From Rossellomorea marisflavi (GTDB lineage Bacteria > Bacillota > Bacilli > Bacillales > Bacillaceae_B): a DNA stretch of 64,000 nucleotides. This document shows positions 1,617 to 45,526 of the stretch, piece after piece. Position numbers and translations under genes: made by a program. A model generated the notes under the pieces. The model was not told the DNA's origin. It did no database searches and saw only the letters and a list, made by a program, of their open reading frames with translations. Location of the stretch: positions 1,332,501-1,396,500 of the forward strand of contig CP033051.1 in the NCBI GenBank assembly GCA_003667865.1, given 5' to 3'. Each line of letters opens with the position of its first letter. The first letter of the stretch is position 1.

Positions 1617-2057
1617 ATGTTTATACGATTTATGGAGAAGAAGGATATTGATGATGTTGTAAAAATTGATCAGCAGTCTTTTTCTGTACCATGGAGCCGG
1701 CAGTCATTTGTTAATGAGATTGACCAAAATCTGTATGCCACCTATATTGTTTTAGAAGATGACGACGGTAGCATTATTGGTTATTGTGGAGTGTGGAATG
1801 TTCTAGATGAAGCACATATCACAAATATCGCCATTGCTCCTGGTAATCGAGGCAAAGGTTATGGGGAACTACTGCTCAAAAAGATTATGGAACTATCAAA
1901 GGAAGCGGGGGCAAAATCCATGACACTAGAAGTTCGATTAAGTAATGAAGTGGCACAAAGTCTTTATCGAAAGTTTGGCTTTGAAGACGGTGGAGTCCGT
2001 AAAAATTATTATTCAGATAATGGTGAAGATGCGTTAGTGATGTGGGTGACATTATGA
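1617..2057 (+). CDS. rimI: N-acetyltransferase RimI-type (GNAT)
   Basis: A 146-residue GNAT protein. The acetyl-CoA loop is recognisable as [11 protein letters not shown] (about residues 82-92), followed by the [19 protein letters not shown] signature of RimI. RimI acetylates the N-terminal alanine of ribosomal protein S18, though in Bacillus its targets may be broader. The position inside the t6A operon is conserved in Bacillaceae (ydiD). A GAGGGAT ribosome site precedes the ATG. Confidence 0.9.
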
Positions 2058-3073
2058 AGAAGGATTTATACATATTAGGAATTGAAACGAGCTGTGATGA
2101 GACGGCAGTGGCAATCATCAAAAATGGTACTGAAATTGTAGCAAATGTTGTCGCTTCGCAAATAGAGAGTCATAAGCGATTTGGTGGTGTTGTCCCTGAG
2201 ATTGCATCCCGCCATCATGTTGAACAAATGACCATTACGTTAGAAGAGGCTCTATCACAATCTAAAGTAACACTTGATGATATAGATGCGATTACTGTAA
2301 CAGAAGGACCAGGCTTAGTTGGAGCCTTATTAGTAGGGGTAAATGCAGCAAAAGCATTAGCCTTTGCAAGTGGAAAGCCATTAGTCGGAGTACATCATAT
2401 CGCTGGACATATTTATGCGAACCGCTTGATTAAAGAAATGGAATTTCCTTTATTATCCCTAGTGGTCTCTGGCGGACATACGGAGCTTGTTCTAATGGAG
2501 GAGCACGGAAGCTTCAAGGTCATTGGTGAAACACGTGATGATGCTGCTGGTGAGGCATATGATAAAGTGGCACGTACACTGAACTTGCCGTATCCAGGAG
2601 GGCCACATATTGATCGGTTAGCTCATGAGGGACAGCCTACTATTGATTTACCAAGAGCTTGGTTGGAAGAGGGCTCATATGATTTTAGTTTTAGTGGTCT
2701 GAAATCTGCTGTGATTAATACACTTCATAATGCTGAGCAAAAGGGAAAACAAATAGAGCCTGAAAACCTAGCAGCTAGCTTTCAAGAGAGTGTTATTGAT
2801 GTACTTGTTACAAAAACAGTCAAAGCTGCGAAGCAATATAAGGTGAAACAAGTGTTAGTAGCAGGTGGAGTGGCTGCAAACAAAGGCTTACGAGCACGGT
2901 TAGAGCAGGAATTTGAAGGCATTTTAGATATCGAGCTCATTATTCCTCCACTTGCTCTCTGTACAGATAATGCTGCTATGATTGCAGCTGCAGGTACGGT
3001 GTTGTATGAGAAAGGAAAACGAAGTGACCTCAGTATGAATGCTAATCCTGGATTAGACTTAGAAATGCAGTAG
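2054..3073 (+). CDS. tsaD: tRNA N6-threonylcarbamoyladenosine transferase TsaD
   Basis: Catalytic subunit of t6A synthesis, which transfers threonylcarbamoyl from its AMP ester to A37 of tRNA. I chose the ATG at 2054 (339 residues), which overlaps the rimI stop as ATGA and has GGGTGA just upstream, over the GTG at 2042. It begins [21 protein letters not shown]. The HHIAGH segment supplies the HxxxH metal ligands, and SGGHTELVL and [12 protein letters not shown] are further ASKHA motifs. Also known as gcp/ydiE. It is the last gene of the operon, and a terminator follows. Confidence 0.96.
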
Positions 3074-3079
3074 TTCAAG

Positions 3080-3415
3080 TTGTCCACAAAACATCCAGAA
3101 TTCGAGGTATTTTGCAGAGACTTAGCGTAAAAAGCTAAGTCTTTTTTTCATGGAAAGGAAGTATTATTCACAACATGGGGATATACTCTGGATAAAAACT
3201 GTAGAACACTGTTGAATTTTAGCGAACATACGTTTTATACACAGCTTGTGGACAAATTGTGCATAACTTTAAATAAATTGTTAAGAGATTGTGTAAAAAG
3301 AATTCGTAGAAGTGTGTCGCATTCTGTAGATAATGTGGATAAGTAAAGGTTTTATTGTGGATAATGTGGAAAAGTGCTGTGAATAACGTAAAATAAACCT
3401 TTTTTATGTGGATGA
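3080..3415. promoter_or_regulatory. DnaA-box cluster in the tsaD-ABC-F intergenic region
   Basis: About a dozen 9-mers match or nearly match TTATNCACA. Exact matches: 3164-3172 (+), 3235-3243 (+), 3258-3266 (-), 3334-3342 (-), 3356-3364 (-), 3378-3386 (-). One-mismatch copies: 3080-3088 (+), 3187-3195, 3247-3255, 3325-3333, 3365-3373 and 3407-3415 (all -). Several are spaced head to tail by 9 to 11 bases. The density is far above chance and no gene lies here. I recall a DnaA-box cluster between gcp and ydiF in B. subtilis that moderates replication initiation by titrating DnaA. The same gene pair flanks this one. The function here is inferred. Confidence 0.8.
3119..3148 (+). terminator. Rho-independent terminator of the t6A operon
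   Basis: Stem GACTTAGC / GCTAAGTC with a 7-base loop and a T7 tail, 45 bases after the tsaD stop. Confidence 0.9.
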
Positions 3416-3431
3416 AAATGTGGGAAAACGA

Positions 3432-3471
3432 TAAAAAACTGGACAAGAGTGTGTGTAACTCACTGTCCAGT
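3432..3471 (-). terminator. Terminator of the ABC-F gene
   Basis: Read on the minus strand: stem ACTGGACA / TGTCCAGT extended by AGT/ACT pairs, followed by TTTTTTA. It lies just after the stop of the leftward ABC-F gene. Confidence 0.8.
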
Positions 3472-3479
3472 CATATACT

Positions 3480-5420
3480 TTATACCTGTTTTAGCTCATC
3501 TTCGAGCTCTGTCCATTCCTCAAGCATGCTGTCTAGCTTGTGTTTGTTATCTTCCAGCTTGATTTGAATATCTTGAACCTTCTCGTGATCCTGAAAAATT
3601 TCAGGCAGACACAGCAGTTCCTCAAGTTCTTGAATGTTTGTTTCAAGTACTTCCATTTGATCCTCAAGTTCTGCAATTCTTCGTCGCTTTTGTCGTTCTA
3701 CTTTCTTTGCTTCTTTATCAATCTGGAAGCTTGTTTTGTCCGAAGTACTAACAACCGAAGTTTTGGATTCTTGTTCCTGTTTTTCCAGAAGCTCTAACTC
3801 CTCTTGTTCTTGAAGTTTTTCCTGGTAATAATCATAGTCACCTAAATAAACGGCAACACCTGTTTTTGATAGCTCGATTACTTTTGTCGCAATTCTATTA
3901 ATAAAGTATCGATCATGCGAAACAAAGAGAAGGGTACCAGGATAATCAATTAAAGCAGATTCTAAAACTTCCTTACTATCAAGATCTAAGTGGTTGGTAG
4001 GCTCGTCTAGAATAAGGACATTGGAATGCTCCATCATAATTTTTGATAAAGCGAGTCTTGCTTTTTCTCCACCGCTCAGAGAAGATACAGTCTTTAAAAC
4101 ATCCTCACCTGAAAATAAGAAATTCCCTAAGACAGTACGAATCTCTTTTTCATTTTTCATTGGATACTCGTCCCATAGCTCATTTAGAACCGTCTTATTT
4201 GACGTAAGACGTGCTTGCTCTTGGTCATAGTAGCTAATTGAAACATTTGTACCAAATTGAAACGAACCGCTTATCGGATCTAGGTTTTTAATGAGTGTTT
4301 TTAAAAGAGTAGACTTCCCTACTCCGTTTGGTCCGACTAACGCAATACTCTCTCCTCTATTTAGTGAGAAGGTAAGGTCCTCAGAAAGAATTTCCCCATC
4401 ATAGCCAATGGCTAAGTCTGAAACCTTTAATACATCGTTCCCACTTTGCTTTTCAATAGAAAAACCAAAAGTAGCTGATTTCTCATCTCCAAGTGGGCGG
4501 TCCATGAGCTCCATACGCTCTAGCTTCTTACGACGACTTTGCGCCATTTTTGTTGTAGAAGCTCTAGCAATATTTCGCTGAATGAAATCTTCTAGTTTGG
4601 CAACCTCTTGTTGTTGACGTTCATAAGCCTTAATGTCTCGTTCATATTCATCGGCCTTTTGTTCTAAGTACTTGCTATAATTGCCAACGAATTTTTTAAT
4701 ATAATTTCGTGAAAGCTCATACACTTGATTCACAACGCGATCAAGGAAATAACGGTCATGTGAGACAATAAGGATAGCACCTTCATAGGATTGTAGGTAG
4801 GACTCAAGCCATGATAACGTTTCGATATCTAAGTGGTTGGTAGGCTCATCTAGAATAAGGATATTGGGCTTTGATAATAGAAGCTTTGCAAGAGCCAGTC
4901 TTGTTTTTTGACCTCCACTTAAAGTGGAAATTTTTGTATCATAATCAAATTGCTCAAAATGTAGGCCGTGAAGGACAGAACGAATGTCTGCTTCATATTG
5001 ATACCCACCAGAATCTTTGAAAAGAATCTGTAGTTCATCATATTCCCTCAGAATTCGGTCATAAGCTGTCTGGTTTTCATAAATGGAAGGGTCAGACATT
5101 TGCTGCTCTAATGATCGTAGTTGCACTTCTTGCTTTCGGACTGTATCAAAAACCGTAAGCATTTCCTCCCATATAGAAAGACTAGACTCTAACCCAGTAT
5201 GCTGTGCTAAATATCCAATGGTGACATCTTTAGGTTTTATAATATCTCCAGAATCGTAGGAAAGCTGGCCTGCGATAATTTTTAATAGAGTCGACTTTCC
5301 GGTACCGTTTCGTCCAACAAGAGCAACACGGTCACGAGTTTGTATCTCTAGTTTTATATTCGATAAAATTAAATCAGCTGCATAACGCTTTGTTAGCTGG
5401 TTTACTTGTAATAGTATCAT
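3480..5420 (-). CDS. ydiF: ABC-F family ATPase (YdiF-like)
   Basis: A 646-residue soluble protein with two ABC ATPase domains and no membrane segments, the ABC-F layout. Walker A motifs are GRNGTGKST (about 37-45) and GPNGVGKST (about 363-371). The two signature motifs are LSGGQKTRLAL and LSGGEKARLAL. A linker rich in RRKKLERME lies between the domains, and the C-terminal 100 residues form a charged coiled coil (RRRIAELEDQMEVLE). ABC-F proteins act on stalled or antibiotic-bound ribosomes; whether this member is a housekeeping factor or a resistance factor cannot be read from sequence. GAGGTGA precedes the ATG. Divergent from rex. Confidence 0.92.
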   Translation of the reverse strand: MILLQVNQLTKRYAADLILSNIKLEIQTRDRVALVGRNGTGKSTLLKIIAGQLSYDSGDIIKPKDVTIGYLAQHTGLESSLSIWEEMLTVFDTVRKQEVQLRSLEQQMSDPSIYENQTAYDRILREYDELQILFKDSGGYQYEADIRSVLHGLHFEQFDYDTKISTLSGGQKTRLALAKLLLSKPNILILDEPTNHLDIETLSWLESYLQSYEGAILIVSHDRYFLDRVVNQVYELSRNYIKKFVGNYSKYLEQKADEYERDIKAYERQQQEVAKLEDFIQRNIARASTTKMAQSRRKKLERMELMDRPLGDEKSATFGFSIEKQSGNDVLKVSDLAIGYDGEILSEDLTFSLNRGESIALVGPNGVGKSTLLKTLIKNLDPISGSFQFGTNVSISYYDQEQARLTSNKTVLNELWDEYPMKNEKEIRTVLGNFLFSGEDVLKTVSSLSGGEKARLALSKIMMEHSNVLILDEPTNHLDLDSKEVLESALIDYPGTLLFVSHDRYFINRIATKVIELSKTGVAVYLGDYDYYQEKLQEQEELELLEKQEQESKTSVVSTSDKTSFQIDKEAKKVERQKRRRIAELEDQMEVLETNIQELEELLCLPEIFQDHEKVQDIQIKLEDNKHKLDSMLEEWTELEDELKQV

Positions 5421-7387: not shown

Positions 7388-7417
7388 TACCACAGACCTT
7401 GATGCTGTGGTATTTTT
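7388..7417 (+). terminator. hairpin with T-run at left edge of the IS91-like element
   Basis: Perfect 8-bp stem TACCACAG / CTGTGGTA, a 9-base loop and TTTTT after the stem, immediately before the transposase gene. It could stop incoming transcription and so limit transposase expression, or be the structural end used in rolling-circle transposition, or both. Confidence 0.6.
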
Positions 7418-7422
7418 CATGT

Positions 7423-8718
7423 ATGGAGACAAATATTCTTAGACGTATTTTCTTTGATGAAAATCAACATTGGGAACAATTTAAAATTAAAAATGGGAAA
7501 AAAATCCGTTCTATTGTTATTAAAGAAGTAGAAAAATTTCGGGACTGTGGAAATCCGAAAAATGGGTTCAAGTTATTTGTTTGTGAAGGTTGTCATGATG
7601 TCCGACATGTTCCTTATAGATGTAAGGGTCGTTTTTGTACAACATGTTCTGTTGGAGAAAGCGAGGAATGGAGTAGATTACTGACGGAAGATGTATTACA
7701 GGTCAATCACCGACATGTGATTTTTACAATTGATGAAGGGTTGCGAGATATTTTCCTACTTCACAGACATCTTCTGAAAGATCTAATGGATGCGGCATCC
7801 AAATTATTAATAGACTTCTTTCAGAAGAAGGCGAAAGTAACTCCTGGGATTATTTCAGGACTACACACTTTTGGTTCGAGAGTCAATTTTAATCCTCATG
7901 TTCATATGTTAGTGACGATGGGGGGATTAACTGAAAAAGGGGAATGGAAGCAGTATGATTTTTTGCCATTTGCGATGCTTCGAAAGCAATGGCAGACAGT
8001 TGTATTAAAATTAATTAGAAACGGAGTTTCTCAGAAAGAGAAAAAAAGAATTCAACCAAGACTCCAAAAGGCGTTCACCAATAATGGGGAAGGCTTCTAT
8101 GTGTATGCTCCGAAACAGAGAGGCAAAATTAAAGAACAACTTCGTTATATTGGACGTTATATTCGTCGACCCGCAATTGGAATTAATCGGATTGAGGCAT
8201 ATGATGGTCAAAATGTTACGTTTAAATACAAGGACAAAACAGATGGAAAAGATAAAACAGAAACCGTAAGCGTGGAAGAATTTATTTCACGTTTAATTCG
8301 TCATATTCCAGATGAGCAATTTAAAACCATTCGCCATTATGGAATGTATTCTAGAAGGTCAAAGAAACTGTGTAAAAAGCTGTTAAGCAATTGGCAACAA
8401 ACAGCGAGACGTTGGGTAGTGAAGGTGAAGAAGACCTTACGTCGTCAGACGTGGCGTGAAAGAATAATAGCCAGTGGTAAAAAGGACCCTCTGGTTTGTC
8501 CGAAGTGTGAGTGCTACTATGAATACAAGGGAGAAGTCTGCCTAGAAGATGGTAGATTAGAGATAAAGGTAGCTTTATGCCCAACGACTAGAGCCTATTT
8601 AGAAAGGGTGATTAACAATCTCACCAGTATCAAAAACCCGCAAAAAGGGAAAAAAGAAAAAGAATCCAAACCAAACCAAAAAACAGAGCGTCAGCTTTGT
8701 TTGTTTAGAGTGTCATGA
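7423..8718 (+). CDS. IS91-family Y2 rolling-circle transposase
   Basis: Single-strand HUH nuclease transposase, 431 residues from the ATG at 7423. An N-terminal zinc-binding domain shows CEGC and CKGRFCTTC (about residues 45-80). The HUH metal motif is H159-V-H161 in NPHVHMLVTMGG. The two catalytic tyrosines fit Y242-IGR-Y246. The tail contains another CPKC pair, then a Lys-rich segment. No good ribosome site precedes the start, typical for low-level transposase translation; the ATG at 7402 or TTG at 7399 would lie in the hairpin. The family assignment is firm. Activity is unknown. Confidence 0.9.
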   Translation: METNILRRIFFDENQHWEQFKIKNGKKIRSIVIKEVEKFRDCGNPKNGFKLFVCEGCHDVRHVPYRCKGRFCTTCSVGESEEWSRLLTEDVLQVNHRHVIFTIDEGLRDIFLLHRHLLKDLMDAASKLLIDFFQKKAKVTPGIISGLHTFGSRVNFNPHVHMLVTMGGLTEKGEWKQYDFLPFAMLRKQWQTVVLKLIRNGVSQKEKKRIQPRLQKAFTNNGEGFYVYAPKQRGKIKEQLRYIGRYIRRPAIGINRIEAYDGQNVTFKYKDKTDGKDKTETVSVEEFISRLIRHIPDEQFKTIRHYGMYSRRSKKLCKKLLSNWQQTARRWVVKVKKTLRRQTWRERIIASGKKDPLVCPKCECYYEYKGEVCLEDGRLEIKVALCPTTRAYLERVINNLTSIKNPQKGKKEKESKPNQKTERQLCLFRVS

Positions 8719-44379: not shown

Positions 44380-45526
44380 CTTATTTCGAAACAATATACG
44401 TGAATACGGGATGATTATAGCACTTGTATTCATTACGGGACTGTTTTGGGTATTAACAGATGGAATTACGTTTAACCCACTGAACTTAACCAACTTAATC
44501 TTACAAAACGGCTTTATTTTAGTCCTAGCTGTTGGGATGGTTCTCGTTATAATTACCGGGAACATTGACCTCTCAGTCGGCTCGGTCGTTGCCTTTGTCG
44601 GAGCTATTGCCGGCGTACTAATGATTAATAATAATGTGCCTGTATGGTTAGCGATTATTTTAGCTCTTCTAGTTGGTGCATTGATTGGTGTATGGCAAGG
44701 GTTTTGGATTGCCTATGTTGGGCTACCATCCTTTATTGTAACGTTAGCAGGGATGTTAATCTTCCGAGGATTGACACTTTATTTGTTGGATGGTAAGTCA
44801 TTAGCACCATTCCCTGAATCATTTGGAAAGTTAAGTAGTGGCTTCCTACCAAACATTGGTTCAGGTGACTTTCATATTCTATCAATCATTTTATCAGTGG
44901 GATTATCGCTGGTACTCATTTATTTAGAAATTAGTAAACGCAAAACACAACTCCAAAACAATTTTGAAGTATTTCCACTTTGGATTATGGTAACAAAGCT
45001 AGCACTATTAATCTTTGTTATTAACTGGTTTACGTATCAATTAGCACTGAATAAAGGAATTCCAATTGTATTGGTAATCGTATTTGTCCTTATCCTTATT
45101 TACACCTTTATTATGAACAATACTGTAATGGGGCGCCATATCTATGCAACAGGTGGGAACAAAAAGGCAGCAGACCTATCCGGTATAAAAACCAAGCGCG
45201 TTGTTTTCTGGGTGTTTGTAAACAATGGTGTTATTGCAGCACTGGCTGGTTTAATGTTTGCTGCTCGTTTAAACTCTGCAACACCTGCAGCAGGTAACAT
45301 GCTTGAATTAGACGCAATTGCAGCCGTATTTATCGGTGGTGCTTCAATGGCCGGTGGTGTTGGTACTGTTATAGGTGCAATCGTCGGTGGTCTAGTAATG
45401 GGTGTCATGAATAATGGGATGTCATTAATTGGTGTAGGTATCGATTGGCAACAAGCGATTAAAGGTTTAGTCCTATTACTTGCAGTTGGTTTTGATGTGT
45501 ATAACAAAAATAAAGCTGGAAAGTAA
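44363..45526 (+). CDS. gguB: multiple-monosaccharide ABC importer permease (GguB-like)
   Basis: 387 residues from a TTG start at 44363 (GGAGG eight bases upstream inside the ATPase gene); the in-frame GTG at 44354 overlaps that site. About ten helices, with the BPD_transp_2 marks [23 protein letters not shown] and [24 protein letters not shown]. GguB types are longer than RbsC, as here. Together with ChvE- and GguA-like proteins it forms a complete importer. Confidence 0.92.

Follow-up and report, generated by a model that had tools for sequence, protein, structure and literature searches.

The window is a stretch of 64,000 nucleotides of the Rossellomorea marisflavi genome (contig CP033051.1, 1,332,501-1,396,500). 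Near its start, tsaD (gcp; 2054..3073, plus strand) and a ydiF-type ABC-F gene (3480..5420, minus strand) converge. The tsaD product matches TIGR03723 at 449 bits (cut-off 296) in an open reading frame that runs from a GTG at 2042. The ABC-F product matches NF000355 at 494 bits, above the cut-off of 380, which classes it as ribosomal-protection-like. Judged by its position and by the 54–77% identity among its counterparts in the order rather than by a tree, the ABC-F gene is probably the YdiF orthologue.

The stops of the two genes (tsaD 3073, ydiF 3480) are separated by 406 bp. This interval contains six exact and eight one-mismatch copies of TTATNCACA, the binding box of the replication initiator DnaA. 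By sequence match, the exact boxes start at 3164(+), 3235(+), 3258(-), 3334(-), 3356(-), and 3378(-), and the one-mismatch boxes at 3080(+) and at 3187, 3247, 3290, 3325, 3365, 3407, and 3450 (all -). The cluster was first reported, in an earlier note on this DNA, as spanning 3080..3415 with six exact boxes and about six near matches, partly in head-to-tail series of 9–11 bp. All six exact boxes were located in that span together with seven one-mismatch boxes, and head-to-tail pairs are present at 3325/3334 and 3356/3365 (9 bp) and at 3247/3258 (11 bp). The exact box at 3164..3172 (+) reads TTATTCACA. The exact boxes 3235(+) and 3258(-) form a convergent pair (3235..3266) with the one-mismatch box 3247(-) in between. 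The remainder of the window contains a single exact box, at 45496. Like the published cluster in Bacillus subtilis (a gcp/ydiF-type DBC), this dense TTATNCACA group has the tsaD (gcp) and ydiF 3' ends on its two sides.

The tsaD transcript ends at an intrinsic-terminator-like hairpin with a T run (3116..3144, +), found by a terminator scan of 2900–3600 that returned two terminator-like sites compared to a mean of 0.4 in shuffles. At 3439..3470 (-), inspection by eye showed an interrupted hairpin (CTGGACA...TGTCCAG) and, after it on the minus strand, a run of six T. It is absent from the scan output for 2900–3600 and is likely the ydiF terminator, and the one-mismatch box 3450 inside this putative terminator is probably fortuitous. 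A 75-aa antisense ORF (3219-3446) was given no weight. A cluster regulating promoters of tsaD or ydiF was ruled out because both genes end at the interval and promoter-like matches at the locus number 4 versus 2.1 in shuffles. Elsewhere in the window, a 439-aa ORF at 7399-8718, IS91/transposase-type by eye, follows a twin-arginine-translocase-like gene pair.

The box cluster far exceeds chance expectation

The genome (4,591,517 bp, one contig) contains 215 exact boxes versus 228 matches to the backwards motif, and boxes are therefore not enriched genome-wide. The count of 215 gives an expectation of 0.019 exact boxes per 406 bp; the interval has six (Poisson P(≥6) ~6e-14), so the group stands far above chance, as in a gcp/ydiF-type DBC. 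A scan of the whole genome for two exact boxes separated by ≤30 bp gave six places, near 404.2, 883.7-883.9, 1069.8-1069.9, 1073.0, 1335.7-1335.9, and 4361.4 kb; the tsaD/ydiF cluster is the 1335.7-1335.9 kb site. Reversed patterns with the same gap limit gave 0 pairs in the whole genome.

Box density was ranked over 1.2 of the 4.59 Mb (C1:280001-1480000, 26% of the genome), and the exact-pair scan covered the whole genome. The tsaD/ydiF cluster is the densest 350-bp window of the ranked 1.2 Mb with a score of 25, above oriC, and the windows that follow score 20, 17, 14, 13, 13, and 9. Thirty permuted decoy motifs run on the same 1.2 Mb reached a highest window score of 10 versus 25 for the DnaA box. 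The interval is AT-rich (33% GC), as it is in most other genomes sampled. Similar box density in many ordinary AT-rich intergenic regions had been named as grounds for abandoning the idea; it was seen neither in the 1.2-Mb density rank nor among the whole-genome exact pairs.

The cluster is distinct from oriC

The dnaA gene is located at 1073.4 kb, ~261-262 kb from the cluster. Among 40 genomes with both genes on one contig, the median dnaA-to-tsaD distance is 268 kb or 6.3% of the genome, some genome lengths being rounded, and the distance is below 10% of the genome in 31 of the 40. DnaA, DnaN, and RnpA had no match in 220 tsaD loci, the present locus included, which rules out that the tsaD/ydiF cluster is oriC. 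An oriC at 883.7 kb was also ruled out, as dnaA sits at 1073.4 kb. The cluster thus shares with a gcp/ydiF-type DBC a location in the origin-proximal part of the chromosome outside oriC. The two oriC clusters of this genome, in the dnaA 5' region and at dnaA-dnaN, have the same box type and, unlike the tsaD/ydiF cluster, stand beside dnaA/dnaN, genes found near none of the 220 tsaD loci.

In addition to these two oriC sites, clusters are present at trmE/jag; adjoining a threonylcarbamoyl-AMP synthase gene, which we take to be ywlC; at an RlmH gene, presumably yydA, with an HtrA-like protease that scores below model cut-offs; and at yqeG beside a 46-aa ORF that matches no NCBIfam model and is assumed here to be Sda. 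No ywcI/vpr counterpart was recognised among the clusters of this genome. The other clusters largely coincide with the strong B. subtilis DnaA regions given in Table 1 of PMC4447404, and seven of the eight strong B. subtilis regions seem to be common to this genome, two of these identifications being tentative. The second-densest window of the 1.2 Mb (G000 C1:403949-404298, equal to L067:3949-4298) is located upstream of uvrB. This cluster is not among the B. subtilis eight in the available sections of PMC4447404; DnaA is reported to regulate E. coli uvrB (PMC6015884).

The cluster recurs in many Bacillota

TsaD was detected in 298 of 299 genomes of the order. The 113 loci examined were a non-random sample composed of the 30 best TsaD matches plus picks spread over families, and a cluster was scored as present when a locus had ≥2 exact boxes. 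The earlier note had proposed comparing the gcp-ydiF interval across Bacillaceae. The ydiF gene is present in 91 of the 113 loci, and at least two exact boxes lie between tsaD and ydiF in 88 of these; the tsaD-ydiF intervals of the other three are just 75, 32, and 34 bp. When the 700 bp after tsaD or the 700 bp next to ydiF are counted, 102 of the 113 loci have a cluster, as do 44 of the 47 families. Five of the 11 loci without a cluster at tsaD (G073, G050, G004, G061, G021) have at least two exact boxes ≤350 bp from the end of a separated ydiF, and these five cover all three missing families. The cluster is absent from 6 of 113 order loci with both the tsaD and ydiF sides inspected. G025, G035, G258, G053, and G127 have none or one exact box on the two sides, G059 has four exact boxes 1.27-1.38 kb from ydiF, and ydiF is within 1 kb of tsaD in G030, G003, and G088.

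Loci in which the two genes have moved apart separate the cluster from the pair. It stands at the ydiF end in L182, L183, and L185 (1.7-4.4 kb between tsaD and ydiF) and near tsaD in some genomes of families f3 and f6 (2.5-3.5 kb). Because it follows ydiF in some genomes and tsaD in others when the genes are apart, the cluster is not tied to the tsaD-ydiF pair. All exact boxes between tsaD and ydiF are reversed in L045 and L059 of family f29, as if inverted in place.

Among other Bacilli, 29 of the 39 loci, representing 17 of 25 families, have a cluster next to one of the two genes. In other Bacillota classes it is present in 41 of 65 loci (31 of 44 families) and absent from 24 of 65. These 65 loci were drawn from 134 genomes as the better TsaD matches plus a few lower ones, a choice of better matches that may bias the non-Bacilli share upward. 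The boxes concentrate at the gene end: the first 700 bp of the non-Bacilli loci hold 135 exact boxes, the second and third 700-bp stretches only 5 and 4. Forty decoys in the same first 700 bp averaged 2.0 matches and reached 10 at most, and a second set of 40 averaged 3.3 and reached 45. In this second run the highest decoy counts were 124 matches for the order set and 31 and 45 for the remaining two. The top decoy of the order set, TATCNACAT, is a shifted reading of abutting boxes, and 117 of its 120 matches overlap a box.

Loci with named sources (80 taken, 79 usable) have a cluster in 31 cases. On the Bacilli side these include Halobacillus, Planococcus, Lysinibacillus, Brevibacillus, Paenibacillus, Macrococcus, Jeotgalicoccus, and Kroppenstedtia, and outside Bacilli they include Thermincola, Thermovorax, Alkaliphilus, a Peptococcaceae assembly, and a Clostridiaceae assembly. 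No cluster was seen in loci, some of them short stretches, from Streptococcus suis, Shouchella, Marinococcus, Alkalibacterium, and Bavariicoccus or from Lachnospiraceae, Ruminococcus, and Erysipelotrichaceae. Of seven loci outside Bacillota, none has an exact box within 700 bp. The positional conservation that the earlier note suggested from a second genus is borne out and reaches well beyond that (the order, other Bacilli, and many non-Bacilli classes), and it does not depend on the gene pair staying together.

The boxes form an ordered array

The core of the cluster is a head-to-tail array on the minus strand (3325..3427) with boxes starting at 3325, 3334, 3356, 3365, 3378, 3407, and 3419, the last with two mismatches. 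Their offsets from 3334 are -9, 0, 22, 31, 44, 73, and 85. Spacings were compared among 72 genera, using one locus per genus from 44 families. The same-strand spacing of 9 bp is found in 65 genera, 12 bp in 53, 21 bp in 47, 31 and 42 bp in 46, 22 and 63 bp in 45, and 73 bp in 34. Randomised positions (1000) gave a best spacing shared by 20 genera on average and 28 at most. The groups outside the order agree: spacings of 9, 12, and 21 bp are each seen in 35 of the 41 non-Bacilli loci (null maximum 15 of 200), and 9 bp occurs in 19, 12 bp in 14, and 21 bp in 11 of the 26 other-Bacilli loci (null maximum 9). Box distances cluster at a period of ~10.75 bp, with R = 0.46 where the null maximum of 200 was 0.09 and R = 0.45 where it was 0.13, and boxes at the fixed spacings stand in rough helical phase. 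The nulls for spacing and phase preserve the number, strand, and span of the boxes and ignore the kinship of the genomes.

Boxes are mostly on the strand opposite tsaD, with exact -/+ counts of 228/68, 73/20, and 117/12 in the three groups. A matrix fit to the 72 loci places boxes at 0, 22, 31, 73, 85, and 94 with a partial box near 42. Positions 0, 22, 31, and 73 were seeded and are present by construction; 85, 94, and the partial box near 42 emerged from the fit. One orientation accounts for 71 of 72 loci, and 8 of 72 fit poorly (score under 31). The local offsets 0/22/31/73/85 agree with the fit, and 44 deviates by 1-2 bases from the usual 42-43.

Many non-Bacilli have a 31-bp three-box module, TGTGGATAATGTGNATAANNNTGTTNATAAC, directly after tsaD. 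With ≤2 mismatches the module was found in 161 of 398 Bacillota genomes and the backwards control in 0 of 398; the matches divide into 160 of 380 non-Bacilli and 1 of 18 Bacilli. The standard module (≤2 mismatches) was not found in this genome, and its local form (3356..3386, -) has gaps of 9 + 13 bp where most other taxa have 9 + 12. Bacilli retain the first two module boxes, and the third has drifted. Even ≤6 mismatches gave only two matches in the genome's own 1.2 Mb (558.4 and 1200.8 kb), none of them at tsaD/ydiF or oriC. In 48 genomes, among the matches listed, the module is ≤3.5 kb downstream of tsaD in 32, elsewhere in 38, and at both places in 22. The four elsewhere sites examined all adjoin hpf, and three of the four lie between a comF-family gene and hpf. 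DnaA and DnaN are absent from 30 module loci. In the non-Bacilli loci L479, L485, L490, and L470 (module at 1501-1531), a second module copy is found upstream of hpf, which encodes a ribosome hibernation factor.

Discussion

Most of what is known of initiation control outside oriC comes from E. coli and B. subtilis, whose circuits look unrelated. The gcp/ydiF DnaA-box cluster of B. subtilis, named in the earlier note, is real and published (PMC4447404), and it occupies the same gene pair and the same two 3' ends as the present one. In the available sections of that paper, the region has 10 DnaA sites with a Kd of 0.15 μM for ATP-DnaA versus 0.33 for ADP-DnaA, DnaA binds it cooperatively, and it belongs to the eight strongest of 269 regions, which were the only eight seen bound in vivo. 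With ATP-DnaA at 55 nM, 16-fold more gcp/ydiF DNA was recovered, compared to 3-4-fold at most for the oriC regions (PMC4447404). The box number is similar, with 10 bound sites in B. subtilis versus 14 sequence matches at ≤1 mismatch here, and the B. subtilis site is farther from oriC (position 627,955 versus ~262 kb from dnaA here) (PMC4447404). When the six B. subtilis clusters that lie outside oriC are deleted together, initiation comes early, and one reintroduced cluster partly relieves this (PMC5295017, PMC13220808). Subtracting the two regions at oriC from the eight strong ones, we infer that gcp/ydiF is one of Okumura's six. On the other side, one review states that in B. subtilis no cluster is known to play a significant part in controlling initiation (PMC5295017, section 37), and ~10-fold DnaA overproduction does not lead to over-initiation (PMC13220808). 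The cluster itself is a further example of the kind of DnaA-box cluster published for B. subtilis; its depth of conservation and its order are what is added here. A published statement on conservation beyond B. subtilis or on geometry was not found in the part of the literature covered, a weak form of absence given that coverage.

The tsaD-side array is probably an ancient control element rather than a product of chance. It is likely that the locus carries an inherited, ordered ATP-DnaA-binding array between convergent gene ends that restrains initiation. DnaA, mainly in its ATP form, would load cooperatively on head-to-tail boxes on about one helix face and build an ordered oligomer. The array would withhold ATP-DnaA from oriC and, with the other clusters of the genome, delay initiation. 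Being near oriC, it would be doubled soon after each initiation, which would double the sink. A site between convergent ends, behind the tsaD terminator, would suit a complex that is kept free of transcription. For this species, binding of DnaA to this copy, one-face oligomers, and early doubling of the sink are expected by analogy. A same-facing, phased row of boxes is presumably what a cooperative ATP-DnaA oligomer would need, and the geometry exceeds the need of a plain sponge because a sponge requires no fixed spacing or orientation.

The same geometry, with spacing, orientation, and phase fixed across very distant taxa, also speaks for a datA-like site, where the ordered ATP-DnaA complex would promote hydrolysis or nucleotide exchange and reset DnaA after initiation. 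E. coli datA resembles the present cluster as a high-affinity DnaA-box group outside oriC that lowers initiation (PMC5295017); it differs in being IHF-dependent, in promoting ATP hydrolysis, and in its gene neighbourhood. The strong preference of the B. subtilis copy for ATP-DnaA (PMC4447404) would fit such a role, and PMC13220808 calls it unknown whether B. subtilis possesses a factor that balances ATP- and ADP-DnaA. The reading is nevertheless unlikely, because datA requires IHF and B. subtilis is described as without IHF (PMC13220808), and because, in PMC4447404 as available, no B. subtilis initiation regulator known so far affects nucleotide binding, exchange, or hydrolysis by DnaA. E. coli DARS1 and DARS2 are likewise conserved DnaA-box loci, non-coding and with an effect on DnaA (PMC13220808), and they raise ATP-DnaA.

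Bound DnaA could instead serve as a roadblock to transcription and so insulate tsaD and ydiF, the two convergent units, from each other, or it could regulate them or a further neighbour. The position at 3' ends and the strongly biased box orientation fit this idea, and E. coli DnaA blocks transcription in an orientation-dependent manner. Three observations make it quite improbable: tsaD is already ended by an intrinsic terminator, the cluster persists at ydiF or at tsaD when the genes are apart, and the array is flipped in two loci of one family (L045, L059). A chromosome-organisation element or a dormant second origin using DnaA could account for a box density above that of oriC (1.2 Mb ranked); it is a still weaker candidate and very unlikely, as the 220 tsaD loci are without a DnaA, DnaN, or RnpA match and the use of alternative origins in B. 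subtilis is judged unlikely in the sections of PMC11019786 available. Chance or base composition can draw on the AT-richness of the interval here and in most other genomes sampled. It is effectively ruled out by the decoys (a best permuted-motif window of 10 versus 25, and a mean of 2.0 versus 135 exact boxes in non-Bacilli), by the empty reversed-pair scan, and by the fall-off to 5 and 4 boxes beyond the first 700 bp.

Returning to the inherited, initiation-restraining array, a more far-reaching version of it can be put forward tentatively and is rather doubtful as a whole. One array would have been inherited at the tsaD 3' end since the ancestor of most Bacillota classes, and its phased geometry would have been kept because the ATP-DnaA oligomer acts beyond sequestration, for example in nucleotide hydrolysis or exchange. 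The array would then be the Bacillota counterpart of datA, and the comFC-hpf site of many non-Bacilli would be a second copy. If an array has stood beside tsaD since early Bacillota, control outside oriC is old in the phylum. The kept geometry yields direct predictions for binding, nucleotide state, and timing, and the short box pattern offers a means of finding DnaA-regulated sites in uncultured Bacillota.

The module also occurs outside cellular genomes. The viral contig IMGVR_UViG_3300037249_000660 (L493:977-1182) has an exact module within a group of ten exact or one-mismatch boxes, and its neighbouring ORFs resemble phage packaging and head genes by eye. A phage carrying a DnaA array may use or sequester the DnaA of its host.
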